Shown here: positions 14,148 to 31,589 of the stretch, piece by piece
Layout of the letters: every line of letters starts with the position of its first letter
Numbering within the stretch: the stretch's first letter is position 1
Assembly (NCBI RefSeq): GCF_000512915.1
Contig: NZ_CP007034.1
Coordinates: forward strand, 2,730,001 to 2,794,000
Source: Barnesiella viscericola DSM 18177
Lineage (GTDB): Bacteria > Bacteroidota > Bacteroidia > Bacteroidales > Barnesiellaceae
Reading direction: 5' to 3'
DNA: 64,000 nucleotides
Program-made: the position numbers and the translations under genes
The notes under the pieces: generated by a model
Databases searched by the model: none
What the model was told of the DNA's origin: nothing
The model's input: only the letters and a program-made list of their open reading frames with translations

Positions 14148-14174
14148 GAGCTTTTAAGGAAATTTTCCCAAACA

Positions 14175-14463: not shown

Positions 14464-17400
14464 ATGAACAATCTAATACCAATTCCAAGCCGCTACCGAT
14501 TAGGCAAGGCGTTAAGACCGTTTTTGGTCTTGCTTATGCTTTGTATCGGAGCATCGGGCTATGCAGCCGACAACAAGGTCACACTTGATGCCAGGAACGT
14601 AACTCTCAAAAGTGTTCTACGCTCGATCGAGAAACAAACAGACTACCGTTTCTTTTATAGTAAAGAAACAATCAATGTTAATGTCCATGTAACCGTCAAT
14701 GTCCAGAACGAGCCGCTGACGGCTGTCTTGGACAAAATCTTGCCGGCACATGGGATAAACTATGTGATAAACAACAAGAGGATATCATTAAATCAGGCTT
14801 CCTCTGCAACAAAAGACAAGCATATAAAGATTGTCGGCACAGTGACCGACACGCAAGGCGAGCCGCTCATCGCAGCATCAGTTGTGGTAAAGGGCTCCCA
14901 AACGGCAACGGTCACCAATGAAGAGGGTGCGTTTCAATTGAATAACGTAGACCCCAATGCCACATTGAGAGTGTCGTATATCGGATATAAGACCCAGTAT
15001 GTATCCTTGAAAGGGTGTTCCGACATAAAAATCGTACTTCAAGAGGATAGCAAGGGCCTGAGTGAAGCGATTGTCATCGGTTACGGTACTATCGACAAGA
15101 AAGAGCTGACATCTGCCATATCGCATGTCAGCGCCAAAGATTTCCAGTCGGTCGCGGCTACGGATGTGTCCATGCTTATCCAAGGGAAGGTACCGGGACT
15201 TTCGGTAGTGAATACTGCCGCTGCCGACCCGAACTCTGCCGCAAGTCTGCAAATACGCGGCGTATCGTCGCGCGAAGCAAGCGTAAGCCCGCTGATCGTG
15301 CTCGACGGTATCCCAGGAGCAAGCCTGACCAATATCAATCCGAACGACATCGAATCGTTCGACGTGCTTAAAGACGGTGCCGCATCGGCAATCTACGGTA
15401 CCCGCGGTTCCAATGGTGTCATCATCATCACCACAAAGAAAGGTCCTCGCGACGGTAAAACCCATACCACCTATTCGGCAACGTTATCGTGGGACAAAGC
15501 CAACCGCGACCTCGACATGATGAATGCCGAAGATTACCGCAACCTGCGTATCCCTGCGGGTGATGCGGCTGCCGATCTCGGCGCGAGCGAAGATCTCTTC
15601 GACCTCGTGCAACAAGTAGGTTTCAAGCAGCAACACACATTGAGCATCAGTGGCGGTAACGCTAACTCGAACTATCGCGTGACAGTCGATTACCGCAATG
15701 CCGACGGCGTTGAGAGACGCGGTAACCGCGAGGAGTACGGTGCGCGTGCCACAGTAAACCACACCACAAAAGACGGGCTGTTTTCTGTAAACGTGAATGT
15801 TGCTCCCCGCGTAGTTTACCGTAACCTCGCCGACAACGATGTTTTTCGCCGCGCGATCGAAGCAAACCCGACCACACCGGTATGGAATCCCAACGATCCC
15901 AGCCGCTACTACGACTTCACCGACTATAACGGTTTTGTCAATCCCATCGAATCGATGAATTTGGTCAGAAACAAAAGCCAAGAGAAAGTCATCGACTGGG
16001 ACGGTACGCTGAAACTCAACCTGCTTCCGCTATTTATGCCGGATGCCAAATACGAGCAGATACTCAACACACAGGTTACATTTGCCGACCACCAGTACAA
16101 CAACGACGTCAATTACTACGAGCCATCGACGATGAACCAGAATCGCCGCAACGACAGAAAAGGCTACGGTTCGCGTACTTCTAACAACGCCCGCAACCTC
16201 AGCCTTGAATGGATCGGCAATTACAGTATCAACATCAACAAACACAACCTCCGCGCAATGGTCGGATATTCATACCAATATTGGCAGAATTCCGGATTCA
16301 GCAGCGAAAACTATGATTTCGCCAACGATGGTATCGGAGCCGACAACTTGGGTGCAGGCGACGGAATGAAAGAGGAAGGTAATATCGGTATGAGCAGTTA
16401 CAAGAACGACAACAAACTGATCGCATTCTTCGGTCGAGTGAGCTATGACTACGACAGTCGCTATCTGTTCACCGCATCGATGCGCCGCGAAGGGTCGTCG
16501 AAATTCGGTAAGGACCACAAGTGGGGTAATTTCCCTGCTGTTTCAGTCGGTTGGCGCATCTCCAAAGAGAGCTTTATGGAAGGAGCTTCGTCTTGGTTGG
16601 ACGACTTGAAGATTCGTGCAGACTTCGGTGTGACAGGTAACCAAGAGTTCGGTAGCTACCTGTCGCTCGACACCATGGGTCCGTTCGGATACAGCTACTA
16701 CAACGGAGAGTGGATTAAAGTTTGGGGACCCAACAAGAATGTCAATCCGGACCTCCACTGGGAACAAGGCAAAAACTGGAACGTCGGTCTTGATTTCTCG
16801 ATGTTCAACAACCGGCTTTACGGTTCGTTCAACTACTTCCTCCGCCATCAGCAAGACCTGCTCGGCAGCTATCGCGTGCCTATGCCTCCCTATCTGTTCA
16901 CCCACACCTATGTAAACGTGGGTACGATGGAAAATCAGGGCTTCGAGTTCGACATCACTTTCAATGCCGTGCAGACCCGTAATTTCTCCTACACGATGAA
17001 TTTCATCGGTTCCACACAGTCGAACAAGTTCGTGGATTTCAGCAACTCCGAATTCGTCGGTAACGATTATTATGATGTAGCTTACACCGAGATCCCCTAT
17101 CCTAACATTCCCTTGCAACGCATAGAAAAAGGTCGCTCGATCGGCGGATTCCATATGTTCAAGTATGCCGGTATAAGCACCGATGGCGAATGGCTTATCT
17201 ACGACAAGGATGGCGATATCATCCAAGGAATCCAAGGTACAGAAGCCGACCGCCAGTATGTCGGAAACGGTCTGCCCAAGTTCACCCTTTCGACCGGCCA
17301 TAACTTCCGCTATAAGAACTTCGACCTTTCGCTCTTTTTCAGCGGAGCATTCGGGTTCCACATTTTCAACATCCATGATTTCTATTACGGCACACGCAAC

Positions 17401-17733
17401 TTCACCGGGAACACACTCCGCAAGGCATACGGTAAAAACTTCCTGATCTCACCGGATCAGAACCCGATTGTCAGCGACTACTTCCTTGAACGCGGCGATT
17501 ATTTCAAGCTCGACTACCTTACGCTCGGCTACACATTGCCCTTGCGTAATATTCGTTTCTTGAACTCGTTCCGCATCTACGGAACAGTGCGCAACGTGTT
17601 TACTATCACCAAATACAGCGGTATGGACCCGTCGAATTTCAATGTCAATGGACTGAACCCCGGAGCACACAGCGGCCGTGGCTATTATCCCACTACTCGC
17701 CAGTTCCTACTCGGTGTACAGCTTGATTTCTAA
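14464..17733 (+). CDS. susC: SusC-type TonB-dependent outer-membrane glycan importer with STN domain
   Basis: The 1089-residue protein forms the outer-membrane channel that imports oligosaccharides with SusD as lid. After the signal peptide (ends GASGYAAD) comes an STN signalling domain (about 36-112, VTLDARNVTLKSVLRSIEKQ), which contacts FecR. A carboxypeptidase D regulatory-like domain follows (about 122-205, VGTVTDTQGEPLIAASVVVKG). Next are the TonB box region EAIVIGYGT, the plug (VPGLSVVN, LQIRGVSS, PLIVLDGIPG, IYGTRGSNGVIIITTKKG) and a long beta barrel ending in FLLGVQLDF with the terminal aromatic. It heads the plus-strand operon; susD follows after 27 bases. Confidence 0.95.
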   Translation: MNNLIPIPSRYRLGKALRPFLVLLMLCIGASGYAADNKVTLDARNVTLKSVLRSIEKQTDYRFFYSKETINVNVHVTVNVQNEPLTAVLDKILPAHGINYVINNKRISLNQASSATKDKHIKIVGTVTDTQGEPLIAASVVVKGSQTATVTNEEGAFQLNNVDPNATLRVSYIGYKTQYVSLKGCSDIKIVLQEDSKGLSEAIVIGYGTIDKKELTSAISHVSAKDFQSVAATDVSMLIQGKVPGLSVVNTAAADPNSAASLQIRGVSSREASVSPLIVLDGIPGASLTNINPNDIESFDVLKDGAASAIYGTRGSNGVIIITTKKGPRDGKTHTTYSATLSWDKANRDLDMMNAEDYRNLRIPAGDAAADLGASEDLFDLVQQVGFKQQHTLSISGGNANSNYRVTVDYRNADGVERRGNREEYGARATVNHTTKDGLFSVNVNVAPRVVYRNLADNDVFRRAIEANPTTPVWNPNDPSRYYDFTDYNGFVNPIESMNLVRNKSQEKVIDWDGTLKLNLLPLFMPDAKYEQILNTQVTFADHQYNNDVNYYEPSTMNQNRRNDRKGYGSRTSNNARNLSLEWIGNYSININKHNLRAMVGYSYQYWQNSGFSSENYDFANDGIGADNLGAGDGMKEEGNIGMSSYKNDNKLIAFFGRVSYDYDSRYLFTASMRREGSSKFGKDHKWGNFPAVSVGWRISKESFMEGASSWLDDLKIRADFGVTGNQEFGSYLSLDTMGPFGYSYYNGEWIKVWGPNKNVNPDLHWEQGKNWNVGLDFSMFNNRLYGSFNYFLRHQQDLLGSYRVPMPPYLFTHTYVNVGTMENQGFEFDITFNAVQTRNFSYTMNFIGSTQSNKFVDFSNSEFVGNDYYDVAYTEIPYPNIPLQRIEKGRSIGGFHMFKYAGISTDGEWLIYDKDGDIIQGIQGTEADRQYVGNGLPKFTLSTGHNFRYKNFDLSLFFSGAFGFHIFNIHDFYYGTRNFTGNTLRKAYGKNFLISPDQNPIVSDYFLERGDYFKLDYLTLGYTLPLRNIRFLNSFRIYGTVRNVFTITKYSGMDPSNFNVNGLNPGAHSGRGYYPTTRQFLLGVQLDF

Positions 17734-17760
17734 TCAATATCAAACAAAAATCAAATTACA

Positions 17761-19488
17761 ATGAAAGCATATAAATATTTGACCTGCCTGGCTTTGGCCG
17801 TAACGTCTCTATCGGCTTGTACCGATCTGGACGAGAATCTTTATAGCGAGATAGGCTCCAACAACTATTTCAATACCCGCGACGATGTTATAGCGATGGC
17901 ATTCCGCTCGTTTGAACACGGCTATTGGACCATCGTACCGCGTTTCAGAATAAACGAACTCCCTGCCGACCAGCTGATCATTCCCCGCCGCGACGGCAGT
18001 TGGGATGACGGCGGTGTGTGGCGTCAGTTCCACTATCACACATGGACGCCCGATATCTCGCGCCATGTGCACGACGAATGGGACTCGCAGTTCGCAGGTA
18101 TCGCCCAAGCCAATTTCGCCATTGACCGTTTCAACGAACTGGATCCGAAAAAATTCGATTTTCAGGAGGATGAGTGGAATGCATTGAAGATGCAGAACAG
18201 AGTTTTGCGTTGCTGGTATTATCTTCGTCTGCTCGACGCTTTCCGCAACGTGCCCTTCTGCATAAGCTACGACGACCCGTCGCAGAACACCCTCTCGCAG
18301 GTTCCGCCTGAAAAGATCTTCAATTTCATCGAGAAAGAGCTTACAGATGCCATTCCGCTCCTCTATAAGAAAAACAGCTTGGGCAGCGGATCGCAGTATG
18401 CAAACATGTGGACGCAGGCAGGTGCAGCAGCATTGTTGGTGCGTTTGTATCTGAATGCCAAAGAATATATAGGAGTAGACCGTCTTGCAGATTGTGAAAA
18501 GGTAGCTCAGGATATTGTCGATGGCGTTTACGGAGAGTATAAGGTAGCCGACCGCTGGGATGCTCCTTTCGATTCCGACAACGACAGCTGCGACGAGCTG
18601 ATCTTCTTCTTCTCCGGATCCTGCAACTACACCAGCTGGCATTACAACCAATTATACAACTGGGGCGTGCCCTCTTACTCGGAACTATTTTTCGACGATG
18701 CCAAAGTGAAACACGGCGGTCATAACGGCGAATTCGTATGTTCGCCGAGTTATGACCCGACCGGCAACCTCTATGATTTCAAATTAGGTATGACCATACA
18801 GAAGTTCCGCAAGTATCCCGGCGACGTACGCCTTAAGAAATATAAAAACCTCGGAGGAGGCAAACGCGAAGGCATGTTCCTGTTCGGCTATCTCGAATAT
18901 ATGCAGAACGGCATACCCCGCAAACTCAAAGCCCCTGAAATGCCTTACGAGCTTTGCATCCGCGATGCTGTGGGTCAGTTCCATTATAAGAAAGAAGGTC
19001 AATGGCTCACATCGCCCGAAAGCAACATGACCACGGGCGACTACAACTCCGGATGGTACACGGTGAAATATCCGATGTACAGCAACAATGACCCCGGTGC
19101 CGGAGAAAGCGATTTCGCAGAAATACGTCTGCCCGAAATCATATATGCGCTCGCCGAATGCAAACTGCGCCGTGGCGACGACAAAGAAGCCGGCAAACTG
19201 CTCAACAGTGTGCGCCGCCGCTACTATCCGAGCGACAAACACAAAGAGGTGCTCTATCAGCCCGAAGGCAACATAACCCTTGACCTCGACGAGATGCTCG
19301 ATGAATGGGGTCGCGAATTTCTGGCAGAAGGACGTCGCCGCATCGACCTTATCCGTTTCGACAAGTTCAACAAAGGTACATGGTGGGACAAACAGCCCGA
19401 TGCCGACGACCATACCAAAATCTATCCTGTGCCGCGTGTACAGATCACTACCAATGCAGCACTCAAACAGAATCCGGGATATAAATAA
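17761..19488 (+). CDS. susD: SusD-type glycan-binding surface lipoprotein
   Basis: The 575-residue protein matches the RagB/SusD family. The lipobox SLSAC is followed by TDLDENLYSEIGSNNYF, the usual SusD N-terminus. Tetratricopeptide-like segments include ALKMQNRVLRCWYYLRLLDAFRNVPF and QAGAAALLVRLYLNAKEY. The C-terminal LDEMLDEWGREFLAEGRRRIDLIRF and YPVPRVQITTNAALKQNPGY are family hallmarks. It closes over SusC and binds glycan at the cell surface. Aromatic-rich loops (WHYNQLYNWG) could form the binding platform, though the ligand cannot be deduced. Confidence 0.95.
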   Translation: MKAYKYLTCLALAVTSLSACTDLDENLYSEIGSNNYFNTRDDVIAMAFRSFEHGYWTIVPRFRINELPADQLIIPRRDGSWDDGGVWRQFHYHTWTPDISRHVHDEWDSQFAGIAQANFAIDRFNELDPKKFDFQEDEWNALKMQNRVLRCWYYLRLLDAFRNVPFCISYDDPSQNTLSQVPPEKIFNFIEKELTDAIPLLYKKNSLGSGSQYANMWTQAGAAALLVRLYLNAKEYIGVDRLADCEKVAQDIVDGVYGEYKVADRWDAPFDSDNDSCDELIFFFSGSCNYTSWHYNQLYNWGVPSYSELFFDDAKVKHGGHNGEFVCSPSYDPTGNLYDFKLGMTIQKFRKYPGDVRLKKYKNLGGGKREGMFLFGYLEYMQNGIPRKLKAPEMPYELCIRDAVGQFHYKKEGQWLTSPESNMTTGDYNSGWYTVKYPMYSNNDPGAGESDFAEIRLPEIIYALAECKLRRGDDKEAGKLLNSVRRRYYPSDKHKEVLYQPEGNITLDLDEMLDEWGREFLAEGRRRIDLIRFDKFNKGTWWDKQPDADDHTKIYPVPRVQITTNAALKQNPGYK

Positions 19489-19506
19489 TTTTAAACCGAT
19501 ATAAAA

Positions 19507-19965
19507 ATGAAGACGCATAAATTCACAGCGATTGTCGCAATAATGCTTATGGGACTTTTTATGGCAAGTTGCGACGAAGAAAAAGATATAATCGTTATTG
19601 ATGGCAATATTCCCATCAAGACTTCCACCCTCTATATCGTAGGCGATGCCACTCCTGCCTTATGGGATGTAAACAACATGTATCCCTTGGAAATGAGCGA
19701 AGAGGATCATCTTGTATTTATCTACGACGGAAATCTTTCGCAAGGAGAGCTTAAAGCGTACCTTACGCAAGGCAGTTGGGATCAAGCCCCCTGCGTACGC
19801 CCGATGACAGCAGGCTCACCCATAAGCAAGGCCGACAACACCGAGCAATTCCAGCTCTACACCGGAGGAGAAGACCTTAAATGGTCTGTAAAAGATTCAG
19901 GTCACTATCGTCTGGTGTTCGACTTGCGCAACTGGACTCTCAGCACTACTTTCCTCGGTTATTAA
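19507..19965 (+). CDS. Small SusE-like surface glycan-binding lipoprotein
   Basis: The 152-residue lipoprotein has MASC as lipobox followed by DEEKD, an acidic stretch like the Bacteroidetes lipoprotein export signal, so surface exposure is likely. It contains one SusE/SusF-type beta-sandwich module: LYIVGDATPALWDV, FIYDGNLSQGELKAYL and HYRLVFDLRNWTLST. It is much shorter than SusE or SusF, which have two or three starch-binding modules. Position directly after susD is the canonical susE place. It likely helps hold substrate at the surface. Confidence 0.8.
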   Translation: MKTHKFTAIVAIMLMGLFMASCDEEKDIIVIDGNIPIKTSTLYIVGDATPALWDVNNMYPLEMSEEDHLVFIYDGNLSQGELKAYLTQGSWDQAPCVRPMTAGSPISKADNTEQFQLYTGGEDLKWSVKDSGHYRLVFDLRNWTLSTTFLGY

Positions 19966-20020
19966 GTCGAGAGTCAAAGTAAGTATGAAGGTTGTTTAGG
20001 TTTACAATGAGCTCTTCCGG

Positions 20021-20040
20021 TTCCGGCTTTTTTGCCGGAA
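20021..20040 (+). terminator. Intergenic hairpin between the SusE-like and GH27-like genes
   Basis: TTCCGGC and GCCGGAA form a 7-bp stem with a T6 loop. No T-run follows, so it may be a processing or mRNA-stabilising hairpin rather than a terminator. Similar hairpins recur between genes of this operon. Confidence 0.45.
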
Positions 20041-20081
20041 CGCAGGATGCCTCATCAAATGAAACAAATAAAACAGATAAT

Positions 20082-21538
20082 ATGACAAGACACTCGATTA
20101 TAAACAAATTTGCAGTTGCGGCAATCTTATTCTCGACCGCCATTTTTTCGACCGCCTGCGACGATGACAATAAAAAAGGCGGAAGCATCGTTCCGGAACC
20201 TCCGACTCCCGAGCTTCCAGAACTGCCTGTTCCCGGCGATATCCATAAATACAAAGCTCCGCTTTATTGGTCGATCTATGAATATGCCCGGGAATTCGAA
20301 ATTGCCGGTATTCCCTACGATCAGATGGATCTTACTTCCGACCAATGGGATGCGGTAATCGACATGATGGCCACCAAATTCAAGCCTTACGGCTACGATA
20401 TGATCTGTACCGACGGCTTCCTGCCCCAACAGGCTCGGGACGGCGGCATCTATATGTCGCACTACGGGTCGATGCCGCTCAAAGAACTCGTAAAGCGCGC
20501 CAAAGCCAAAGGGCTTCGGGTAGGCGTCTACGACAACCCCTTGTGGATCAAAGGCAAACTCAACAGCAAAGTGCCCGGCACAAACTATACCCTGCGCTCG
20601 CTCACCCGCAATCCACAGGATGTCGTGATGTATCCCAATGTGACCGACCGGACTGATTTCACTTGGCTTGTGACCGACCACCCCGGCGCCCGCGAATACA
20701 TCGACGGATGGTTCAAACATTATCACGACCTCGGGGTGGACTTCGTGCGCATGGACTTCATGTGTTGGTATGAAGACGGAGACCCCGGACGCGATTATCC
20801 CGTGACCTGCGGCTACGGTCGCGAGCGTTATGAACGCGGATTGGCATACATCTGCGAGGCGGCGACCAAATACGGCATATTCACGTCGATCGTGATGCCC
20901 GAGCTTTACAACGATGCCGAACTCGAAAGGAAATACTGCAACATGACACGCATCGTGCAGGATACCAACATCGGCGGCTGGCACCATTTCTCGTCGTTCA
21001 ACCGAGGTACCATCTACGACCGCTGGCCTTATGCCGACAACCAGATGGACGGCTTCACCCATTGGAGCCATATCGGCGGACGCGGAAAATTATCCTTGAC
21101 GGCGATTTCCTGCGGCTGAACAAATGCACGACCGACCACGAACGCCGCTCGCAGGTATCGCTGCAACTGATTGCCGGAGGTCCGGTAGCTATCGCCGACA
21201 CCCCCGAGACGATCGGAAATCTCGACCGCTTCTACACCAACACGGAACTTCTGGCTCTCAATGCCGACGGATTCGTGGGCAAACCTCTGTCGGATGAAAT
21301 CGACAGCGAAGGCAGCTGCATCTGGTGGGGAACGATGAGCAACGGCGATGTGGTTCTTGCCATGTTCAACCGCGAAGATTCACCGAAAAAAATGTCGGTA
21401 AGCTTATCCGATATGGCTCTCGAAGGCGAATTCAAAGCACGTGACCTCTGGGAGCATGCCGACGAGGGTACGGTTTCAGGCAACATCGAAGCTATGGTGC
21501 CGCGTCACGGATGTAAAGTATTGAAATTGACCAAATAA
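20082..21538 (+). pseudogene. GH27-like (clan GH-D) surface glycosidase lipoprotein, frameshifted copy
   Basis: The start chosen at 20082 gives a signal peptide and FSTAC lipobox followed by DDDN, a surface-export-like signal. The TIM barrel matches the intact paralog at 23460: WSIYEYAREFEI, YDMICTDGFLPQQARDGG and GVDFVRMDFMCWYEDGD, with the Asp of VRMDF as expected nucleophile. At 21086-21089 there are four A residues where the paralog has five (24440-24444), so the frame ends at 21119. The rest (KIILDGDFLRLNKC to a beta-sandwich end) continues in another frame to 21538. Without the shift the protein would be about 485 residues and lack SusE modules. A sequencing error cannot be excluded. 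Confidence 0.8.
20244..21380 (+). repeat. Near-identical 1.14-kb duplication, first copy (partner 23598-24735)
   Basis: The two segments match base for base over long stretches, apart from one missing A, a D/G codon difference near 21302 and a diverged patch of about 80 bases at 20487-20565. The boundaries are sharp: the sequences differ upstream of CATAAATACAAAG and after GCGAAGATT. Confidence 0.85.
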
Positions 21539-21550
21539 CAAAATAAACAA

Positions 21551-21588
21551 GGGGGCGCGGGACTGCGATTTCGGGACTGCGCTCCCCC
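21551..21588 (+). terminator. GC-rich hairpin after the GH27-like pseudogene
   Basis: GGGGGCGC and GCGCTCCCCC pair with one bulge around a loop that can itself pair. It follows the stop at 21538 by 12 bases and lacks a T-run. It may partly terminate or stabilise upstream mRNA. Confidence 0.5.
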
Positions 21589-21621
21589 ATGTAAAACCTA
21601 ATCTAATATAACTCAAAATTT

Positions 21622-23424
21622 ATGAAACACATCTATTTAAAAAGTGTAATTGCGGGTGCTGCCATGTTACTCAGCACAACGGCTGCAAACGCCGCAATTC
21701 CGGAGCACCTCTACATGGTAGGTCCGGCATCGCCAAGTCTGTGGGTACTCGATGTCGCACAGGAAATGACTAACGAAGGCGAAGGAGTATTCTCTTACGT
21801 AGGCAATCTCTATAAGGGAGAGTTACAGTTCATAAACGAAAAAAACTGGGATACCGGCATACGCTATGTACCTGAGGCGAGCGGCTGGCACATTGTAAAC
21901 GCTCAGACAGCCACAGTCATTCAGGAAATCAACAGCGAGAGAAAATGGTGGGTTCCGGAGTTCGGCACATGGGAAGTGAAAGCCTTTTTTGCAGACGAGG
22001 GCAATTCGGTAATGTTCACGGCACAACGTATCGACGACCTCTCCCCGATGGTCGTTCCTATGGGTGGAGCATCAGGTCAATGGGATTCAGCTTTCCCAAA
22101 TCCGGCTTGCAACATCTATCCTCAGGAAGGAACAACCGATGTTTTCGTGTGGGAAGGCACGATGCCGGCAGGTGAACGCAATCAGTTGAAGTTCATCGCT
22201 TATCCGACGAACTGGTGGGAAGCCGAGTTCTATCTGCCCGAGTCGGTAGATGAAGGTAAAAGCTACAAGACCGTGAAAACCGGAGTGAAATACCCGGTGA
22301 AAAAAGGTACTAATGCCAACGGTGACAACCTCGACCATTATTGGGGTTTCGCGGTTGAAGACTGCGCTCCTTACAGAAAATACCGGGCAACACTGAACCT
22401 GACAGATATGACAATCGAATTCGCCGGCGGTGAAGAGACGTATGTTCCCGAGCAACTCTACATGGTAGGCACCGCATCGCCGAGCTTGTGGAATATCGAG
22501 GACTGTCAGGAAATGGTTAATGAAGGTAACGGTGTGTTCAGCTACCACGGCAACCTCTATAACGGAGAATTGCAATTCATAGATGCAAGAGACTGGGGTA
22601 TCGCCATACGCTATGTACCTGAGGCGAGCGGCTGGCACATTGTAAACGCTCAGACAGCCACAGTCATTCAGGAAATCAACAGCGAGAGAAAATGGTGGGT
22701 TCCCGAATACGGTAATTGGGATGTAGAAGTACGTTTCACCGACGAAGGCAGAAGTGTGAGTGTCACAGCAGAACGTGTCGGCGATATGGTTCCGCAGGCA
22801 ATCGGCTTAGGACATGCCATCGGTCAATGGGATTGCCAGTGGCCGACTCCCTCAGCCTACCTGCAACCCAAAGAAGATGCCGAAAATGTTTTCGTTTGGG
22901 AAGGAACACTTACCCCCGACCTCGATGGTTCTGGTCAGGATTTGCGCAGACATATCAAATTTATCGCATATCCGAAAGCATGGGATCAAGGATGTATCTT
23001 CTATGTACCTGAATCGGTAGATCATAACGGCAATGTAAAAACGGTGCAAGTTGGCGACAAACTTCCTCTTCAACAGACAACCAACGGTAATGGACCCTTA
23101 GACTGGTTCTGGGGCTTCCCGGCAGAGGAATGTACTCCCGACAAGACATACAGGATAACGTTAAATCTGAACGATAACACCGTAGAGTTCACCGATGCCA
23201 ACGGAGATCCCACCGGCATTTCCGATGCCGCCGCAGACGGAATGAAAGCTGCCTTTATCGGAGATAATCTTGTAGTAGAAGGCGCGACTTCGGCAATTGC
23301 CGTTTACGACATAGCAGGTCGCAGAGTTGCCTATTCAACGAACGGCGAACTGACTGCTACCGGACTGCCCAAAGGGGTCTATGTAGTACAGAGCGCCCGG
23401 AACGCAGTCAAAGTTATCAAATAA
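21622..23424 (+). CDS. SusE/F-like multi-module glycan-binding protein with T9SS sorting domain
   Basis: The 600-residue protein has a type I signal peptide (ends TAANAA) without a lipobox. It carries two tandem units, each with two SusE/F-type modules. Unit 1 is about residues 27-275 (EHLYMVGPASPSLWVL, VVPMGGASGQWDS). Unit 2 is about 276-525 (EQLYMVGTASPSLWNI, AIGLGHAIGQWDC). The C-terminal ~75 residues (AVYDIAGRRVAYSTNGEL, GLPKGVYVV, KVIK) form a type A T9SS sorting domain, so it is probably exported by type IX secretion and anchored without lipid. Paired aromatic residues (WWVPEF, NWWEAEFYLPE) may stack on sugar rings. No catalytic motif is visible. Confidence 0.8.
   Translation: MKHIYLKSVIAGAAMLLSTTAANAAIPEHLYMVGPASPSLWVLDVAQEMTNEGEGVFSYVGNLYKGELQFINEKNWDTGIRYVPEASGWHIVNAQTATVIQEINSERKWWVPEFGTWEVKAFFADEGNSVMFTAQRIDDLSPMVVPMGGASGQWDSAFPNPACNIYPQEGTTDVFVWEGTMPAGERNQLKFIAYPTNWWEAEFYLPESVDEGKSYKTVKTGVKYPVKKGTNANGDNLDHYWGFAVEDCAPYRKYRATLNLTDMTIEFAGGEETYVPEQLYMVGTASPSLWNIEDCQEMVNEGNGVFSYHGNLYNGELQFIDARDWGIAIRYVPEASGWHIVNAQTATVIQEINSERKWWVPEYGNWDVEVRFTDEGRSVSVTAERVGDMVPQAIGLGHAIGQWDCQWPTPSAYLQPKEDAENVFVWEGTLTPDLDGSGQDLRRHIKFIAYPKAWDQGCIFYVPESVDHNGNVKTVQVGDKLPLQQTTNGNGPLDWFWGFPAEECTPDKTYRITLNLNDNTVEFTDANGDPTGISDAAADGMKAAFIGDNLVVEGATSAIAVYDIAGRRVAYSTNGELTATGLPKGVYVVQSARNAVKVIK
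21858..22703 (+). repeat. Two identical 99-bp intragenic repeats (21858-21956, 22605-22703)
   Basis: Both copies run from CATACGCTATGTACCTGAGG to AAAATGGTGGGTTCC without a difference, while neighbouring module sequence has diverged. They lie 747 bases apart in frame and encode the same segment (RYVPEASGWHIV onward) in both halves of the protein. This points to recent gene conversion and offers a site for in-frame contraction or expansion. Confidence 0.9.
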
Positions 23425-23459
23425 CCAGATATACTACGAATGTTCCATATAACAATTTT

Positions 23460-25850
23460 ATGAACCGTAATATGATCAACAAGTTTGTTCAGATATTTTT
23501 ATGCACACTTCTTACCCCGGCATTTTTATGCCGGGGCGAAGTGAGTGTCGGACAGACACGCGTCGCACAAGAAGCCTTACCGGTTCCCGGTGATATTCAT
23601 AAATACAAAGCTCCGCTTTATTGGTCGATCTATGAATATGCCCGGGAATTCGAAATTGCCGGTATTCCCTACGATCAGATGGATCTTACTTCCGACCAAT
23701 GGGATGCGGTAATCGACATGATGGCCACCAAATTCAAGCCTTACGGCTACGATATGATCTGTACCGACGGCTTCCTGCCCCAACAGGCTCGGGACGGCGG
23801 CATCTATATGTCGCACTACGGGTCGATGCCGCTCAAAGAACTTATCAGAAGAGCCAGAGCAAAAGGTTTGAAAGTGGGTGTCTATGACAATCCTTTGTGG
23901 ATCAAAGGTAATCTCGACAGCAAAGTGCCCGGCACAAACTATACCCTGCGCTCGCTCACCCGCAATCCACAGGATGTCGTGATGTATCCCAATGTGACCG
24001 ACCGGACTGATTTCACTTGGCTTGTGACCGACCACCCCGGCGCCCGCGAATACATCGACGGATGGTTCAAACATTATCACGACCTCGGGGTGGACTTCGT
24101 GCGCATGGACTTCATGTGTTGGTATGAAGACGGAGACCCCGGACGCGATTATCCCGTGACCTGCGGCTACGGTCGCGAGCGTTATGAACGCGGATTGGCA
24201 TACATCTGCGAGGCGGCGACCAAATACGGCATATTCACGTCGATCGTGATGCCCGAGCTTTACAACGATGCCGAACTCGAAAGGAAATACTGCAACATGA
24301 CACGCATCGTGCAGGATACCAACATCGGCGGCTGGCACCATTTCTCGTCGTTCAACCGAGGTACCATCTACGACCGCTGGCCTTATGCCGACAACCAGAT
24401 GGACGGCTTCACCCATTGGAGCCATATCGGCGGACGCGGAAAAATTATCCTTGACGGCGATTTCCTGCGGCTGAACAAATGCACGACCGACCACGAACGC
24501 CGCTCGCAGGTATCGCTGCAACTGATTGCCGGAGGTCCGGTAGCTATCGCCGACACCCCCGAGACGATCGGAAATCTCGACCGCTTCTACACCAACACGG
24601 AACTTCTGGCTCTCAATGCCGACGGATTCGTGGGCAAACCTCTGTCGGATGAAATCGGCAGCGAAGGCAGCTGCATCTGGTGGGGAACGATGAGCAACGG
24701 CGATGTGGTTCTTGCCATGTTCAACCGCGAAGATTATTCCCGCGAGATGAGCGTCGATCTGTCGAAGTTCGGAATTCATGGGACATGCCGCGTACGAGAC
24801 ATGTGGACGCATGTCTATGAAAACTCTATCAGCGGCACATTCAGCGCCACGGTGCCCGAGCATGGTTGCAAAGTGGTGAAATTATTGCCGGAAACTGCGG
24901 CAAAACCCGAAAGCCTTTATATGATAGGTCGCGCCACACCGGCATTCTGGAATATAGACAATGCCTGCGAGATGACGGTCGAGCAAAACACGTTCGTGTA
25001 TCGCGGGCCGCTATTCAAGGGAGAAGTCAGATTTGTCAGCAAACGCGACTGGAACTCGGTGAATTATATCCCCAAAGGAGATAACGGCACGTGGCTTACC
25101 GACCCGGGAGTTGTGGAGGTGTTTAACGGCGATCCTCACGAGTTTGCAAAAAACTGGTGGATTAATGAGCCGGGGAGCTACGAAGTGCGGATGAAGATTT
25201 CCGATAGCGGAAACCTCGCCTCGCTTTCGGCGACACGCACGGGCGAACTTCCTTCCATGATGACGGTATTGGGCGTCTCGACCGGTTGCTGGAATAATGT
25301 AAACGCTTATATCGCCTATGGCTCCGATGACAATCCCGACATAGTGGAGTGGAACGGTCTTGTCAGACCCGATGCCGACCGTTGCCATTTCAAATTCGCC
25401 GCTTGCCCCGGGGAATGGTGGGAATCCATGTTTTATGTGCCCGAAACCGTAGACTTCAACAACAAGGTGAAGTTGGTCAAACCCGGAGAGACGCATAAAT
25501 ACCGTGAGGATTACGGCGGAGGTCTCGATTATTTCTGGGGCTTCGCACCGGTCGATTGCGGATTTTACCGTGTGACGGTAAACAAGGCTGCCAAAACAGT
25601 GACCTTTACCCCGAGAGGCAGTTCGGATCTCGACCTTACCGAAACAACTGCCGGGGCGAACCGTCTTAACGCATGGCTTTCAGGCAATGTATTGTACGCC
25701 GAAAGCGGCAATGGTCCTGTGAAGGTATATGATATCAACGGACGTTGCCTCGGTCGGTCAGCCGATGGTCTGCTCACCATCGACGGTCTTGCCGCCGGAG
25801 TATATGTGGTGAGAAACCCGTCAGCTTCAATCAAACTAATGAAAAAATAA
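23460..25850 (+). CDS. GH27-like glycosidase fused to SusE/F-type modules and T9SS sorting domain
   Basis: This is the 796-residue intact paralog of the gene at 20082. Domains: signal peptide (about 1-35), GH27-like clan GH-D TIM barrel (about 45-400; GVDFVRMDFMCWYEDGD with Asp217 as likely nucleophile; KIILDGDFLRLNK and DHERRSQVSLQ in the acid/base region), and C-terminal beta sandwich to about 475. Then come two SusE/F-like modules (LYMIGRATPAFWNI, MTVLGVSTGCWNN) and a sorting tail (VKVYDINGRCLGRS, GLAAGVYVV, SIKLMKK). GH27 includes alpha-galactosidases and isomaltodextranases; specificity is not readable. It has no lipobox, unlike the paralog, so the two would reach the surface by different routes. 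Confidence 0.82.
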   Translation: MNRNMINKFVQIFLCTLLTPAFLCRGEVSVGQTRVAQEALPVPGDIHKYKAPLYWSIYEYAREFEIAGIPYDQMDLTSDQWDAVIDMMATKFKPYGYDMICTDGFLPQQARDGGIYMSHYGSMPLKELIRRARAKGLKVGVYDNPLWIKGNLDSKVPGTNYTLRSLTRNPQDVVMYPNVTDRTDFTWLVTDHPGAREYIDGWFKHYHDLGVDFVRMDFMCWYEDGDPGRDYPVTCGYGRERYERGLAYICEAATKYGIFTSIVMPELYNDAELERKYCNMTRIVQDTNIGGWHHFSSFNRGTIYDRWPYADNQMDGFTHWSHIGGRGKIILDGDFLRLNKCTTDHERRSQVSLQLIAGGPVAIADTPETIGNLDRFYTNTELLALNADGFVGKPLSDEIGSEGSCIWWGTMSNGDVVLAMFNREDYSREMSVDLSKFGIHGTCRVRDMWTHVYENSISGTFSATVPEHGCKVVKLLPETAAKPESLYMIGRATPAFWNIDNACEMTVEQNTFVYRGPLFKGEVRFVSKRDWNSVNYIPKGDNGTWLTDPGVVEVFNGDPHEFAKNWWINEPGSYEVRMKISDSGNLASLSATRTGELPSMMTVLGVSTGCWNNVNAYIAYGSDDNPDIVEWNGLVRPDADRCHFKFAACPGEWWESMFYVPETVDFNNKVKLVKPGETHKYREDYGGGLDYFWGFAPVDCGFYRVTVNKAAKTVTFTPRGSSDLDLTETTAGANRLNAWLSGNVLYAESGNGPVKVYDINGRCLGRSADGLLTIDGLAAGVYVVRNPSASIKLMKK
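23506..23543 (+). other. Strong hairpin inside the signal-peptide coding region
   Basis: CCCCGGCAT (23515-23523) and ATGCCGGGG (23528-23536) form a perfect 9-bp stem with a T4 loop, extended by CACTTC with GAAGTG. It lies 46-84 bases inside the frame starting at 23460. It resembles the intergenic hairpins of this operon, as if one had become coding during the duplication. Confidence 0.7.
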
Positions 25851-25855
25851 TCCGT

Positions 25856-25870
25856 CCCTGCCCCGCAGGG
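25856..25870 (+). terminator. Short hairpin after the GH27-SusE fusion gene
   Basis: CCCTGC and GCAGGG form a 6-bp stem with a CCC loop just after the stop at 25850. There is no T-run. It is probably a weak terminator or mRNA 3'-end hairpin. Confidence 0.4.
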
Positions 25871-25916
25871 TGGATTTACAAACAAATTACTAATTATTCA
25901 TTTAACCTTTAATGTT

Positions 25917-26876
25917 ATGAAACGAAATTTACTTTCAAGTATGCTTGCCGGAGCGGCAATGCTACTCGGCACCGCTGCCGCAACAGCTGCAATCCCTGAA
26001 CACCTCTACATGGTAGGCGAAGCTTCGCCCAGTTTGTGGCACATCGACCTCGCAATAGAGATGACCAACGAAGGCGACGGCGTGTTCAGCTATCGCGGTG
26101 CCCTCTATAATCAGAATCTCCAATTCATTGATGCCCGGGACTGGGATACCGGAGTACGTTATGTACCCGAAGTAAGCGGTTCGTGGCTTATCAAAGCCGA
26201 TGAGGCAACCATTATCAGCGGTATCGGCAACGAGAACCGTTGGTGGGTTACCGAACCCGGAACCTACGAAGTCAAAGTTTATTTCGGCGATGACGGCAAT
26301 TCGGTGATGATAACAGCGCAATGGGTAGGAGAACTTGAACCCATGGTGGTCCCCTTGGGAGCCGCATCGGGTCAGTGGGACTGTTCATCCGTTCCCTATA
26401 CCTACAATATCTATCCTAAGAAAGGGACAGAAGATATCTTCGTTTATGAATGTACCGTGATGCCGGGTGCAGATGGCAAACATATCAAGTTCATCTCCTA
26501 CCCCAGCAACTTCTGGGAAACATGGTTCTATCTGCCGGAATCTACCGACAACGGGGTTGTGAAGTTCGTCAAATTCGGTGACAAACTGAACATCCGACGT
26601 GCGTGGAATGACGGTAACCTCGACCAGTTCTGGGGCTTTGCCGATGAAGACTGCACACCCGAGCTGAAAGTCAAGGTGACACTTAACCTCAATGACGATA
26701 CTATCGAATTTTCCGAAGTCGATCCCTCCGGCATCGATGAGATTACGACAACCGCAGACCGCCGTGTCGAAGCTGTCTATAACCTCTCCGGTGCACGGGT
26801 AGACATCGACAACCTCAACAAGGGAATCTATATCGTCCGCTACAACGACGGTACTTCCGAAAAACTGATGAAATAA
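25917..26876 (+). CDS. SusE/F-like glycan-binding protein with T9SS-type C-terminus
   Basis: The 319-residue protein is closely related to the halves of the 600-residue protein at 21622. The signal peptide ends ATAAIPEH; one two-module unit follows (EHLYMVGEASPSLWHI, FIDARDWDTGVRYVPE, VVPLGAASGQWDC, FISYPSNFWETWFYLPE). A short sorting tail (VEAVYNLSGARVDI, LNKGIYIVRY) ends in LMK. Three related proteins within 7 kb indicate local amplification of a surface binder. No lipobox and no catalytic motif are seen. Confidence 0.78.
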   Translation: MKRNLLSSMLAGAAMLLGTAAATAAIPEHLYMVGEASPSLWHIDLAIEMTNEGDGVFSYRGALYNQNLQFIDARDWDTGVRYVPEVSGSWLIKADEATIISGIGNENRWWVTEPGTYEVKVYFGDDGNSVMITAQWVGELEPMVVPLGAASGQWDCSSVPYTYNIYPKKGTEDIFVYECTVMPGADGKHIKFISYPSNFWETWFYLPESTDNGVVKFVKFGDKLNIRRAWNDGNLDQFWGFADEDCTPELKVKVTLNLNDDTIEFSEVDPSGIDEITTTADRRVEAVYNLSGARVDIDNLNKGIYIVRYNDGTSEKLMK

Positions 26877-26922
26877 CGTCCATCTCCGGAATATCCAAGT
26901 AAAGAACCCTGATGTTTTTATA

Positions 26923-26960
26923 AGATGTGCTTCGCCTCTTTTTTGAAACGAAGCGCATCT
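26923..26960 (+). terminator. Hairpin upstream of the GH43 gene
   Basis: AGATGTGCTTCG pairs with CGAAGCGCATCT with one wobble; the loop is rich in T. It is followed by ATTTTACTA and precedes the GH43 start by 30 bases. It is a candidate partial terminator separating binding-protein genes from the enzyme genes. Confidence 0.5.
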
Positions 26961-26990
26961 ATTTTACTAAAATGTAACCGTAATGCCATA

Positions 26991-27974
26991 ATGAAACCCG
27001 TTTTCTGCCTTTTGCTATTTTGCTGCGGATTGTGTCAAATGTCAGCCCTGAACATCGACGATATCAACATCCGTGATCCTTTTATTCTTACCGACAATGT
27101 GAAAAAGATTTACTACATGTATCGCACCTCCGACTCCATCATGGCAGACGGCAAGGTACGTGGAGGCGTGGAAGTATTCACAAGCCGCGACCTGAAAAAG
27201 TGGAACGGTCCGCAGACTGTGATGCGCATACCTGCCGACAATGGTCTGACAGGTACTGTATGGGCTCCCGAAGTACATAAATACCATGGCAAATATTACT
27301 TGTTTGCCACCATCAACAGCGACATCAAGTGGAAAAAGAGAAAAGAAGGATGGGGAGACTACACTTGGCGTGGCACACAGATTTTCCATGCCGACCGACC
27401 CGAAGGTCCGTTCAAGCCGTTCGACTGTTTTGTCACTACCCCGATGGACTGGATGGCACTCGACGGTACGCTGTGGGTGGAAAACGGTACGCCCTATATG
27501 GTATTCTGCCACGAATGGGTGCAGACCGAAGACGGCACTATGGAAGCCGTAGAACTAAAATCGGATCTATCGGCTATGGCAGGCGAACCACAGACACTCT
27601 TCTACGGCTCCGCCCCCGACTGGTCTACCGGCATAGAGCCTTCGCCCGGATCGCCCAAGGGCTACATTACCGACGGATGCTATCTCTACCGTACCAAGAC
27701 CGGAAAACTGCTGATGATCTGGTCGAGTTTCAGCAACGGCGACTATGCCATCGGCATAGCCGAATCGATCACCGGAAGTGTGAAAGGTCCATGGCGTCAG
27801 CAGGAAAAACCGTTATTCGTGAAAAACGGCGGGCACGGCATGATTTTCAAGACTTTCGACGGAGGTCTGAGGCTGATCCTGCACCAACCCAACAGCCCCC
27901 TCGGTGCCGAACGGGCAAAGATCTTCGAGCTGGAAGATACGGGTAACACCTTGCAGTTAAAAAACAAACAATAA
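26991..27974 (+). CDS. GH43 family glycosidase
   Basis: From the ATG at 26991 (an upstream in-frame start at 26925 overlaps the hairpin and gives no signal peptide at the N-terminus) the product is 327 residues. A signal peptide (MKPVFCLLLFCCGLCQMSA) precedes a single five-bladed propeller. DINIRDPFIL supplies the catalytic base Asp, MALDGTLWVENG the pKa-modulating Asp, and YMVFCHEWV the acid Glu region. GTVWAPEVHKYHGKYYLFA is the family signature. GH43 enzymes usually remove alpha-L-arabinofuranose or beta-xylose units. No accessory domain is present. It is the first of six closely spaced enzyme genes. Confidence 0.88.
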   Translation: MKPVFCLLLFCCGLCQMSALNIDDINIRDPFILTDNVKKIYYMYRTSDSIMADGKVRGGVEVFTSRDLKKWNGPQTVMRIPADNGLTGTVWAPEVHKYHGKYYLFATINSDIKWKKRKEGWGDYTWRGTQIFHADRPEGPFKPFDCFVTTPMDWMALDGTLWVENGTPYMVFCHEWVQTEDGTMEAVELKSDLSAMAGEPQTLFYGSAPDWSTGIEPSPGSPKGYITDGCYLYRTKTGKLLMIWSSFSNGDYAIGIAESITGSVKGPWRQQEKPLFVKNGGHGMIFKTFDGGLRLILHQPNSPLGAERAKIFELEDTGNTLQLKNKQ

Positions 27975-28009
27975 GTGAATCCAAAACCCAATCAGTCATA
28001 ATTCATGTC

Positions 28010-30025
28010 ATGAGAACAATCAAGTTTTACGCATTCGCACTCCTTCTGCTGTCGAGTTTCAACAGCATTTCGGCGAAAGAATACCGCCTGCAATCTCCTT
28101 CGGGCAAAATCGCTGCAAATATCGACTGCGGCGACAACCTGAGTTTTTCCGTCTGCTGCAATGGCAAAGAAGTCCTTGCCAAATCGCCCGTTTCGATGAC
28201 ACTGTCCGACGGGACTGTGTGGGGAGAGAAAGCCAAGACAACCAAAGCTGTGCGTAAATCGAACAAGAGCATTATCGAAAGCCCGTTTTCTCCGTCGGCA
28301 ACTATGCCCGATGTCTACAACTCTCTTACCTTGCGTATGAAGGGAGGATGGAGCGTAGAGTTCCGCGCTTATGACGACGGTTTTGCCTACCGCTTTGCAA
28401 GCACATTGGACAAGCCCTACGAAATAGCCACGGAGCAGACCGACTTCAATTTCCCCGCCGACTATACCGCCTCGGTGCCCTATGTGCGCACGGGATCGGA
28501 CGACAACATGCAGTCGCAGTTTTTCAACTCTTTTGAAAACCTCTACACGGTAGAGAGACTATCGGCTCTCAACCCGCGTCGTCTTGCATTTCTCCCCCTT
28601 TCGGTCGATACCGACGGCGTGACCGTAGCTATTACGGAAACCGACCTGAACGATTATCCGGGGCTTTATCTCTACAACCCCGACGGCACAAATTCACTCA
28701 AAGGCAAACATGCGCCCTACCCGACAAAAATTGTCGATGGCGGATATAACAATATAGAAGGCGTTGTCACCGAGACAGCCGACTATATCGCCCGCGTCGA
28801 TGGTCCGCGCACATTCCCGTGGCGTATCCTTGTCATCGGCGATGACAAAGTCGTTGCATCAAGCAACCTGAGTTATCTGTTGGCGGAGCCGTCGCGCATC
28901 GCCGACACCTCATGGATCAAACCCGGCAAGGTGGCATGGGACTGGTGGAACAGCTGGAATATTACCGGAGTTGATTTCGAGGCTGGCATCAACACACCCA
29001 CTTACAAGCATTATATCGACTTCGCGTCGGAGAACGGCATCGAATATGTGATTCTCGACGACGGCTGGGCTGCGGGCAAAGGGGAAAACCTCTTTATCCT
29101 CAATCCTGAAATCGACCTTCAAGAAATAATCGCATACGCCGGAAGAAAGAATGTCGGCATCATTCTATGGGCTGGTTACCGCGCCTTCGAACGCGACCTC
29201 GAAAAGGTGTGCAAGCATTATTCGGAGTTGGGAGTGAAAGGGTTCAAAGTAGATTTCGAAGACCGCGACGACCAACTGATGACCGCCTTCAACTACCGTG
29301 CTGCCGAAGTAGCTGCACGCTATCACCTCGTGCTCGACCTGCACGGGTCATATAAACCGGCAGGTATCAACCGCACGTGGCCCAACGTGCTCAACGTAGA
29401 GGGTGTGAACGGACTTGAAAACGTGAAATGGACCGAAATAGGCGATTTCGACATCATACAATATGATACCATGCTTCCTTTCCTTCGTCAGTTAGCCGGT
29501 CCGATGGACTATACCCAGGGGGCAATGGTCAATGCCGCGCGCCACAATTTCCGCCCTATCCACAGCCAGCCCATGGCACCCGGAACACGTGCACACCAGC
29601 TGGCACTGTACATGATCCTTTTCTCTCCGCTCAACATGCTCTGCGACTCGCCCAGCAACTATCGCCGCGAACAGGAATGTACCGATTTCATAGCCTCGGT
29701 TCCTACCGTATGGGACGAAACGAAAGTGCTCGACGGCAAAATGGGCGAATATATCGTGACCGCACGCCGAAAAGGCAACGACTGGTTTATCGGAGGTATC
29801 ACCAATTGGACTCCTCGCGACCTGACCATCGACCTCAGCCCGCTGAACTTGAAAGAGGGTACTGAAATGACCATATTCACCGACGGAGCCAACGCACACC
29901 GCAACGGCAACGATTACCGGAGCCAAACCACTACTGTCGCTTCGGACTCTCTTCATGTACATCTCGCCCCCGGCGGAGGCTTTGCCGCCCACATCTGCGG
30001 CACAGATCCGACAAGCGATAAGTAA
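28010..30025 (+). CDS. GH97 family, retaining-type (alpha-galactosidase-like)
   Basis: The 671-residue enzyme differs from the minus-strand GH97 in its active site. The paired bases of the inverting group are absent. Instead Asp415 in GFKVDFEDRDDQ takes the place of the nucleophile of the retaining branch (such as BT1871), with Glu470 in VEGVNGLEN as the acid/base candidate. The N-terminal beta-sandwich (YRLQSPSGKIAANI) and TIM barrel (VAWDWWNSWNITGVDFEAG, YVILDDGWA) are complete. A signal peptide (ends SSFNSISA) places it in the periplasm. The retaining branch characterised so far acts on alpha-galactosides, which fits the GH27-like genes nearby. Confidence 0.88.
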   Translation: MRTIKFYAFALLLLSSFNSISAKEYRLQSPSGKIAANIDCGDNLSFSVCCNGKEVLAKSPVSMTLSDGTVWGEKAKTTKAVRKSNKSIIESPFSPSATMPDVYNSLTLRMKGGWSVEFRAYDDGFAYRFASTLDKPYEIATEQTDFNFPADYTASVPYVRTGSDDNMQSQFFNSFENLYTVERLSALNPRRLAFLPLSVDTDGVTVAITETDLNDYPGLYLYNPDGTNSLKGKHAPYPTKIVDGGYNNIEGVVTETADYIARVDGPRTFPWRILVIGDDKVVASSNLSYLLAEPSRIADTSWIKPGKVAWDWWNSWNITGVDFEAGINTPTYKHYIDFASENGIEYVILDDGWAAGKGENLFILNPEIDLQEIIAYAGRKNVGIILWAGYRAFERDLEKVCKHYSELGVKGFKVDFEDRDDQLMTAFNYRAAEVAARYHLVLDLHGSYKPAGINRTWPNVLNVEGVNGLENVKWTEIGDFDIIQYDTMLPFLRQLAGPMDYTQGAMVNAARHNFRPIHSQPMAPGTRAHQLALYMILFSPLNMLCDSPSNYRREQECTDFIASVPTVWDETKVLDGKMGEYIVTARRKGNDWFIGGITNWTPRDLTIDLSPLNLKEGTEMTIFTDGANAHRNGNDYRSQTTTVASDSLHVHLAPGGGFAAHICGTDPTSDK

Positions 30026-30052
30026 CTTCCAATCCAATGACCAATTTCAGAT

Positions 30053-31573
30053 ATGAAAATCTTAAAAACATTTATTGCTATCGTCTTCGGACTCTTTGCA
30101 ATGACAACAACGGCAGCCAACGATATTGCCAATTTTAACAGATATGCCAACGACAACAAACGTATAATGGAATTGCCCAACACAGGATCGCGTGTGGTGT
30201 TCATGGGCAACTCGATCACGGATTTCTGGCCGACCAACCGTCCGGAATTCTTTACCCTTAACGATTTCATCGGCAGAGGCATCTCCGGTCAGACCTCGTA
30301 CGAAATGATCATGCGTTTCCGCGAAGATGTGGTGCGCCTCGCCCCGGCAGGTGTGGTAATCTGTGCCGGCACCAATGACATCGCTCAAAATCTCGACATC
30401 CCGTATGACGAGGAGCGCACGCTCGGCAACATCCTTTCAATGGCAGAAATAGCCAGTGCAAACGGCATACAGGTGTTTCTTGCATCGGTGCTTCCGGTAA
30501 CCAGTTTCCAATGGAATCCCGCCATCACGAACCATAAAGATAAAATCGAAAACCTTAACAGGCGGATAAAGGAATATGCCGACGCACATGATATGCCGTA
30601 TATCGACTACTATTCGGCACTGGTCTACGGCGACCGTGAATTCAACTATGCCCTTACCGGAGACGGCGTTCACCCCAATGCAGAGGGATACCGCATAATG
30701 GAAGGCGTTGTCCTGCCGATTATCCGCGAACGTATACAATTCGAAGGAGGTGTGATCCCCCAACAGGTAACGCTTTCGGGTTCGGCGATTGCCGAAGCCA
30801 ATCCGGTAGTCTGCACCAAAGTGTCAATCACCGGATTCGAGGCTTTCGCAGAACTGAAAGCAGGCGGAAACCTCGAAATCAAGAATGAGGAAAACACATC
30901 GTTTTTCATAACAGACAACAAGATCGCAGAAAACGGACAACCGATGCAGGTTGCAAAAGACGGAGTGTACTGCATTTCTCTCGATTTCCTGACCAAGGTA
31001 GCTTCTGTCAAGGAGGTGACCTCGATGTGCGTGCTCAACTGCTTTAACAAAAAGAGCCTGGCAGACCTGACTTATGCCGGAGAGGGCAAATGGATCGGCG
31101 ATTGGAACGTAAACCTTCAAATGGCATGGGGCGAAGAAAACCGCTACCGCCTGATGATGACTCTCGGCGACGAGAAAGTGAACTGGGGCTATACACGGGG
31201 TGCGACCATGGAACCTGACGGTACGGAAGATTATTTCCACATGATGCGTGTAGAACCAGCCAGCACTTGGGCTAATACCTGGCGTATCCCCGCAAGTTAC
31301 GATGGGAAAACAGTCCGCCTGACAGTTGTTCTGCGAGGCACTTATACCCACCACTACACGGAAGTATCATCCGTAGCACAGGTAGAGACCAGAAATGCCG
31401 GGATCGTGAAACAGGAAGCCGATGCCTTTGTAAGTCTCGCCGACGCAATGATTTATAATATGGCAGGAGCTAAGGTACTGGCTGTGTCAAAAGGCGATGT
31501 CATCACTCTTCCCGAAGGAATTTATGTAGCCAAGTCCGGACCCTTCGCCGAAAAGTTCATAATAAGAAACTAA
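30053..31573 (+). CDS. SGNH/GDSL esterase fused to SusE/F-like modules and sorting tail
   Basis: The 506-residue protein has a signal peptide (ends TTTAAND) and an SGNH hydrolase domain to about residue 225. Ser54 lies in FMGNSITDFW (block I), the oxyanion region in RGISGQTS, block III is CAGTNDIAQN, and the catalytic Asp/His are in GDGVHPNAEG. SGNH enzymes of this type remove O-acyl groups from sugars. Residues about 240-440 form beta-rich SusE/F-like modules (VVCTKVSITGFEAFAELK, YRLMMTLGDEKVNWG). The tail (AMIYNMAGAKVLAV, LPEGIYVAKS, KFIIRN) looks like a T9SS sorting domain. Fusing an esterase to SusE/F modules mirrors the GH27 fusion. Confidence 0.82.
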   Translation: MKILKTFIAIVFGLFAMTTTAANDIANFNRYANDNKRIMELPNTGSRVVFMGNSITDFWPTNRPEFFTLNDFIGRGISGQTSYEMIMRFREDVVRLAPAGVVICAGTNDIAQNLDIPYDEERTLGNILSMAEIASANGIQVFLASVLPVTSFQWNPAITNHKDKIENLNRRIKEYADAHDMPYIDYYSALVYGDREFNYALTGDGVHPNAEGYRIMEGVVLPIIRERIQFEGGVIPQQVTLSGSAIAEANPVVCTKVSITGFEAFAELKAGGNLEIKNEENTSFFITDNKIAENGQPMQVAKDGVYCISLDFLTKVASVKEVTSMCVLNCFNKKSLADLTYAGEGKWIGDWNVNLQMAWGEENRYRLMMTLGDEKVNWGYTRGATMEPDGTEDYFHMMRVEPASTWANTWRIPASYDGKTVRLTVVLRGTYTHHYTEVSSVAQVETRNAGIVKQEADAFVSLADAMIYNMAGAKVLAVSKGDVITLPEGIYVAKSGPFAEKFIIRN

Positions 31574-31589
31574 CCAACTGCAATAATCT

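Follow-up and report, generated by a model that had tools for sequence, protein, structure and literature searches.

Apparent gene conversion between two neighbouring GH27 genes of a Barnesiella viscericola polysaccharide utilisation locus, one of them a probable young pseudogene

The stretch analysed here is a 64,000-nt window of one 3.08-Mb contig of Barnesiella viscericola DSM 18177 (genome G000), and all positions follow the numbering of that window. It carries a polysaccharide utilisation locus (PUL) with two genes for isomaltodextranase-like GH27 proteins, GH27a and GH27b, which share most of their catalytic-domain sequence. The two look like old paralogs homogenised by gene conversion and not like a fresh duplication, because their flanks match different orthologs elsewhere. 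On balance we favour a history in which GH27a, once homogenised, lost a single A and turned into a young pseudogene. The process would probably be an ordinary one: conversion between neighbouring paralogs, then decay of one copy.

Results

The repeat and its mosaic structure

By blastn, positions 20226-21380 of GH27a align with 23580-24735 of GH27b, with 1128 of 1156 positions identical and one gap. A first-pass annotation of this DNA had described some 1.14 kb as shared almost perfectly. The direct repeat is indeed there, but the identity is not even: the repeat is a mosaic, with 23 of its 28 differences packed into the 74-bp patch at 20489-20562. These 23, together with three at the left edge, make up the 26 substitutions in 20226-21085, and the codons changed upstream of the indel number 20 (14 synonymous and six nonsynonymous). 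The sole substitution after the indel, at 21303, gives D in GH27a and G in GH27b. Exact runs within the repeat measure 245, 523, 217 and 77 bp, the first two lying on either side of the patch. We set aside a chance origin of this identity because the comparison pair in locus L030, a long gene of the GH27b kind and a short gene of the GH27a kind, is 71.5% identical and holds no exact run of at least 30 bp.

Homologs, flanks and the direction of copying

Homologs were found in 11 of 60 relatives (G000, four others of the genus and six of the order), in seven of 393 genomes of the order at E <= 1e-60, and in 48 of 397 genomes of one family at E <= 1e-100, the close type being confined to four of these 48 (loci L029, L030, L031 and L033); assembled genome contigs gave six loci. 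G000 is counted wherever it was part of the set, and no homolog genome is known to belong to the same species. Long and short genes stand side by side in L029 (Muribaculaceae Isolate-036) and in L030, whose genome is of the same family.

Outside the tracts, GH27a and GH27b are only 46% identical on the 5' side (comparison window 20100) and 48% on the 3' side (comparison window 21400), rising to 61% in the last short comparison window. In the 5' flank (20100-20200) GH27a is 60-62% identical to L031 and L033, and GH27b is 60-62% identical to L032 and the long gene of L030. A tree of the 3' flank (177 columns) places GH27a with L031 (support 88) and GH27b with the long genes of L030 (71) and L029 (64).

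The pair in L029 has a 247-bp exact run of its own, beside 66-77% identity in comparison windows 20600 and 21100-21300, and this run is, as we read it, a separate gene conversion. The mosaic, the flanks resembling different orthologs and the separate run in L029 together support the gene conversion proposed in the first-pass annotation, and its further suggestion, that conversion could repair or spread the GH27a lesion, is plausible. The single gene of L032 matches the long gene of L029 in its 5' part and the short gene of L029 in its 3' part, from about 21185 in window register. It may be a crossover product or a metagenome-assembly chimera, and we do not use it as firm evidence. Sites diagnostic of the long or short type, taken from the first comparison for each tract, are short-type in 13 cases, long-type in two and neither in one, which favours copying from GH27a to GH27b.

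The frameshift and the two export forms

The first-pass annotation had reported that AAAA in GH27a, opposite AAAAA in GH27b, splits the GH27a frame, and we confirmed this. From its ATG at 20082, GH27a stays in frame to codon 336 and continues for nine out-of-frame codons to a stop that ends at 21119, giving 345 aa as read; GH27b is a single 796-aa frame. Within the repeat, GH27b has no run of five or more A other than the A5 that is broken in GH27a; it also has one C5.

That the copies differ in export is plausible, though judged by eye. The CDDDN of GH27a begins at codon 26 (nt 20157); the lipobox and acidic stretch, STAC-DDDN, were read by eye without a predictor. CDDDN recurs in the nearest relative compared, another Barnesiella species (G007), and variants of it occur in other short copies. 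The C-terminal tail of GH27b resembles, by eye, a type IX secretion system (T9SS)-type sorting domain; Pfam and NCBIfam scans returned no T9SS sorting-domain name for it, and NCBIfam gave no match for the five proteins scanned. The SusE/F modules earlier ascribed to GH27b reduce to a sub-threshold match at residues 488-592, with 24.0 bits against the Pfam SusF_SusE cut-off of 27.5.

A GC-rich hairpin, its stem bases changed yet still paired, recurs at the starts of GH27 genes (20020-20041, 23515-23536, L030:5333-5354 and L033:5799-5820). It lies inside signal-peptide codons in GH27b and in the long gene of L030, and its exact GH27b form is unique in the genome.

Enzyme identity

The GH27-like assignment of the first-pass annotation held, in that sequence and fold searches alike gave the GH27 isomaltodextranase 5awo as the closest solved relative. 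It was the top match at E 3.5e-69 with a single sequence and 6.7e-104 with a profile. An earlier model of GH27b from eight sequences was poor (predicted local distance difference test, pLDDT, 57.1) and was replaced by one of residues 1-476 from 26 aligned sequences (mean pLDDT 79.5, predicted template modelling score 0.81). 5awo came top for this model in both structural comparisons (Foldseek E 1.5e-32; VIA-align Z 39.5, with a root-mean-square deviation of 2.6 over 412 residues at 32% identity). GH27b has the GH27 fold of a barrel and a C-terminal beta sandwich; Melibiase_C scores 65.1 bits, and the barrel part has no Pfam match of its own.

The putative catalytic residues D217 and D286 of GH27b are invariant in the 26 homologs and align with Asp residues of 5awo, which are presumably catalytic there. 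The lesion in GH27a follows the residue equivalent to K328 of GH27b, and the loss of frame leaves the GH27a catalytic domain incomplete. Judged on the model, GH27a would lack the equivalent of residues 329-476, which form the end of the barrel and the C-terminal sandwich. D332-G333-D334, directly beyond the lesion, is invariant across the 26 homologs. The substrate of both proteins may be an alpha-1,6-glucan such as dextran; a mixed glycan is possible in view of the other enzymes of the locus.

Recent transfer and the age of the exchange

A block of the window matches contig 26 of G007 at 99.6% identity, with 61 differing positions in 15.4 kb (0.40%). The match stops where that contig runs out, 131 bp inside the repeat. 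By comparison, two 20-kb stretches from elsewhere in G007 are only 67-90% identical to G000 in their main syntenic matches, and leftward of the match G007 shows no synteny with the window. From these contrasts we conclude that the locus, at least to 20374, has by its sequence moved between species recently. When window positions 19400-32000 were searched against the G007 genome, only positions 1-975 of that stretch matched, and the assembly lacks the remainder of the locus. G007 probably holds a homogenised pair as well, since short-read assemblies break at repeats much as this contig does.

About 1,060 bp of tract show one substitution and the indel between the copies, where about four differences would be expected at 0.40% had they been apart since the G007 split. 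On this rough argument, the last exchange between GH27a and GH27b is about as old as that split or younger. The lesion in GH27a has to be younger than the most recent exchange that spanned 21086, or else GH27b was restored afterwards.

The missing base: mutation or error?

Frame integrity was compared between G007 and G000. Of 145 G007 open reading frames examined, 67 matched; for 64 of these a single frame covered over 90% of the length, with none flagged as split (95.7 kb coding); the reverse check of 151 frames gave 60 full-length matches out of 71 and again no flag. When single deletions were planted, full length was lost in all 64 cases and 51 were flagged, and GH27b set against GH27a was flagged as expected. 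In two stretches (13.5 and 4.36 kb, 99.8% identical) shared by G000 and G002, another species of the genus, every gap is a multiple of three in length. A further match to G002, 1.26 kb at 94%, shows 1-bp gaps in two pairs that compensate each other, together with one 2-bp gap; all of these we took as alignment shifts at that divergence. Over the 15.4 kb shared with G007 there is one isolated 1-bp indel (14163, outside genes), besides a ragged left edge with five gaps. In two further repeats of the window, aligned over 1,332 and 787 columns at about 98.4% identity, the matched transposase genes are free of indels, apart from a 2-bp gap where the second alignment turns ragged at its end. A real mutation is favoured by the absence of frameshifts among the 64 comparable genes, and the missing A in GH27a is, from these comparisons, probably genuine.

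The locus and its surroundings

On the minus strand the PUL has genes for an extracytoplasmic function (ECF)-type sigma factor, FecR, GH97, GH3 and an aldose epimerase. On the plus strand follow SusC-like, SusD-like, SusE/F, GH27a, SusE/F, GH27b, SusE/F, GH43, GH97, GDSL, GH31, GH2 and SASA genes (Table 1). The names SusC-like and SusD-like are ones we assume from position. The three separate SusE/F proteins exceed the Pfam SusF_SusE cut-off, at 28.4, 50.6 and 36.5 bits. A tRNA scan of the window found none.

Table 1. Features of the GH27 region, in window coordinates
Feature	Position	Strand	Basis
GH27a ('short'): lipoprotein-type signal with CDDDN, catalytic domain, frameshifted, 345 aa as read	20082-21119	+	ORF (open reading frame) list, blastn, orthologs L031, L033, L029_short, L030_short
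Tract 1, 245 bp, identical to GH27b	20244-20488	+	Sequence comparison
Unconverted patch, 23 differences in 74 bp	20489-20562	+	Sequence comparison
Tract 2, identical to GH27b except for the indel and substitution 21303	20563-21380	+	Sequence comparison
Lesion: A4 run in GH27a (A5 in GH27b at 24440-24444)	21086-21089	+	Sequence
GH27a out-of-frame remainder with Melibiase_C (67 bits); TTG start merely as the ORF lister gives it	21062-21538	+	ORF list, Pfam
GH27b ('long'): intact catalytic domain, SusE/F-like part, T9SS-type tail (by eye)	23460-25850	+	ORF list, Pfam, structure model
SusC-like, SusD-like and small SusE/F lipoprotein genes	14464-19965	+	ORF list; Pfam for SusE/F only
SusE/F-type protein, two modules, between GH27a and GH27b	21622-23424	+	ORF list, Pfam
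Third SusE/F-type protein; adjoins the short GH27 copy in L029 and L030	25917-26876	+	Pfam
Block 99.6% identical to G007 contig 26; ends with that contig, 131 bp into the repeat	4955-20374	.	Alignment

Related loci elsewhere are arranged differently. In L029 (2379-5948) one 1189-aa frame joins a SusD-like gene to the long GH27 gene, and a search for a small SusE/F lipoprotein gene between the SusD-like and long GH27 parts gave no match at E <= 1e-8. In L031 (7449-8600) an apparent insertion sequence, recognised by eye, directly follows the short GH27 gene and precedes a SusE/F gene. G000 itself holds a third GH27 paralog, 49% identical, whose locus (L050:6477-20000, equivalent to G000:C1 2486477-2500000) is 99.8% identical to G002 over 13.5 kb and is perhaps another recently moved PUL.

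 At 40964-48255, two direct copies of a transposase gene enclose a GH31 and a SusE/F gene (42417-46772, 99.8% to G002), perhaps as a composite transposon with glycan genes. Mobilisable-element genes (Mob_Pre, relaxase, NikA-like, integrase) adjoin the locus at 48417-58805. Inverted arms, 87-89% identical, lie at 4449-5015 and 58236-58805, and the G007 match begins within the left one. Genes for a ThsB-like TIR protein and an AbiE toxin-antitoxin lie to one side, in 718-4392, and a HipA-like gene to the other, in 59349-60620.

Discussion

Based on these results, we propose that one PUL came to hold two old paralogs, the short one a surface lipoprotein and the long one carrying a SusE/F-like part and a T9SS-type tail. 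Catalytic-domain sequence would have been transferred by homologous recombination over two tracts or more, perhaps from GH27a to GH27b, while the export and binding parts were kept distinct. After the last exchange GH27a would have lost one A from the only A5 of the repeat. Its translation would then stop before the last barrel part and the C-terminal sandwich, and its activity would be lost; GH27b, with nearly the same catalytic sequence intact, would buffer that loss.

Several observations pull the other way. The 5' flank of GH27a is merely 41-43% identical to the short genes of L030 and L029. The 3'-flank tree does not gather all the short copies into a single clade and leaves the short gene of L030 without a resolved position (support 32), and the tree of the 74-bp patch is weak (support 55). 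With L031 in place of the short gene of L029, the direction test for tract 2 narrows to 7 to 5. For the lesion itself, the contig of the nearest relative ends before 21086, and PMC8812927 names wrong homopolymer lengths as the most frequent error left in long-read assemblies, with errors in repeats often outlasting polishing.

This last point leads to the best-surviving alternative, an error in the assembled consensus: the living strain would have the fifth A and an intact GH27a, and conversion would be the sole real event. A one-base change in the sole A5 of a near-perfect repeat of about 1.15 kb falls where residual errors typically remain (compare PMC8812927). It sits less well with the frames preserved in all 64 comparable genes and with the single isolated 1-bp indel against G007 in 15.4 kb. 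The two other repeats, nearly indel-free, also speak against it, though they are more diverged and easier to assemble. We regard the error as possible but rather unlikely.

Doubtful, in our view, is a more dynamic reading in which the lipoprotein and T9SS-type copies would be fixed export and binding contexts for a catalytic cassette that they share through recurrent conversion. If it were true, either copy could break, be restored, or have its specificity rewritten from its neighbour, and the frameshift would be a temporary condition of two genes able to mend each other, carried with the locus from one gut species to another.

The first-pass annotation had also suggested that slippage could switch the frame, and a reversible frameshift, toggling GH27a between short and full-length products by A-run slippage or recoding, has some appeal: the two states are one base apart in an A-run, and a -1 slip on AAA would enter the other frame. 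This suggestion fared badly. A run of merely A4/A5 is short for a contingency tract, we take it that no canonical slippery heptamer is present there, and the run is not conserved, the seven other aligned genes with sequence at this point having two to four A, all in frame. We consider a switch very unlikely. We give hardly any credence to a truncated GH27a that still functions, for example as a surface glycan-binding protein. Both putative catalytic Asp residues (D225 and D294) and the lipoprotein signal do lie upstream of the lesion, but on the model a protein short of the end of its barrel and of the C-terminal sandwich would be unlikely to fold, and no internal stop occurs among the matches listed in the 397-genome family search. 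A fresh tandem duplication now diverging, which the exact identity across most of the catalytic domain might suggest, is scarcely tenable, as the 74-bp patch and both flanks are much more diverged than the tracts, the flanks resemble different genes elsewhere, and long and short genes are already neighbours in L029 and L030.

The preferred reading, conversion followed by loss of one base from GH27a, makes the pair a clean record of conversion in which the catalytic domains of two PUL enzymes were overwritten and their export parts spared. A second gut lineage hints at the same kind of event, and the locus itself appears to have crossed species recently. The case also cautions that reads should be consulted before a frameshift in a repeat of this kind is taken to mark a pseudogene.

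Among the articles listed by our searches on gene conversion with polysaccharide utilization or Bacteroides paralogs, none describes such a pair in its title or the opening of its abstract. The nearest parallel concerns surface-protein genes of Porphyromonas gingivalis, for which the excerpted text of PMC5266723 proposes gene conversion and allelic exchange. That case, too, comes from the Bacteroidales, although its theme is variation between strains, whereas here two neighbouring enzymes of one locus are homogenised.

As a locus, the closest comparison is the branched-dextran PUL of Flavobacterium johnsoniae, described in the excerpted text of PMC10316084 as having SusC/SusD/SusE-type genes, GH31, GH97, GH66 and GH65 and reported there without GH27. 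The SusC/SusD/SusE-type genes, GH31 and GH97 are common to both. The present PUL differs in its additional GH27, GH43, GH2, GH3 and esterases, and in having no GH66 or GH65 match in the genes scanned.

At the level of the enzyme, the isomaltodextranase of Arthrobacter globiformis T6 (GH27; PDB 5awo, 5awp and 5awq) is the best match in both sequence and fold. Contrary to that enzyme, GH27a and GH27b belong to a Bacteroidota PUL, with putative lipoprotein or T9SS-type export and a SusE/F-like part.

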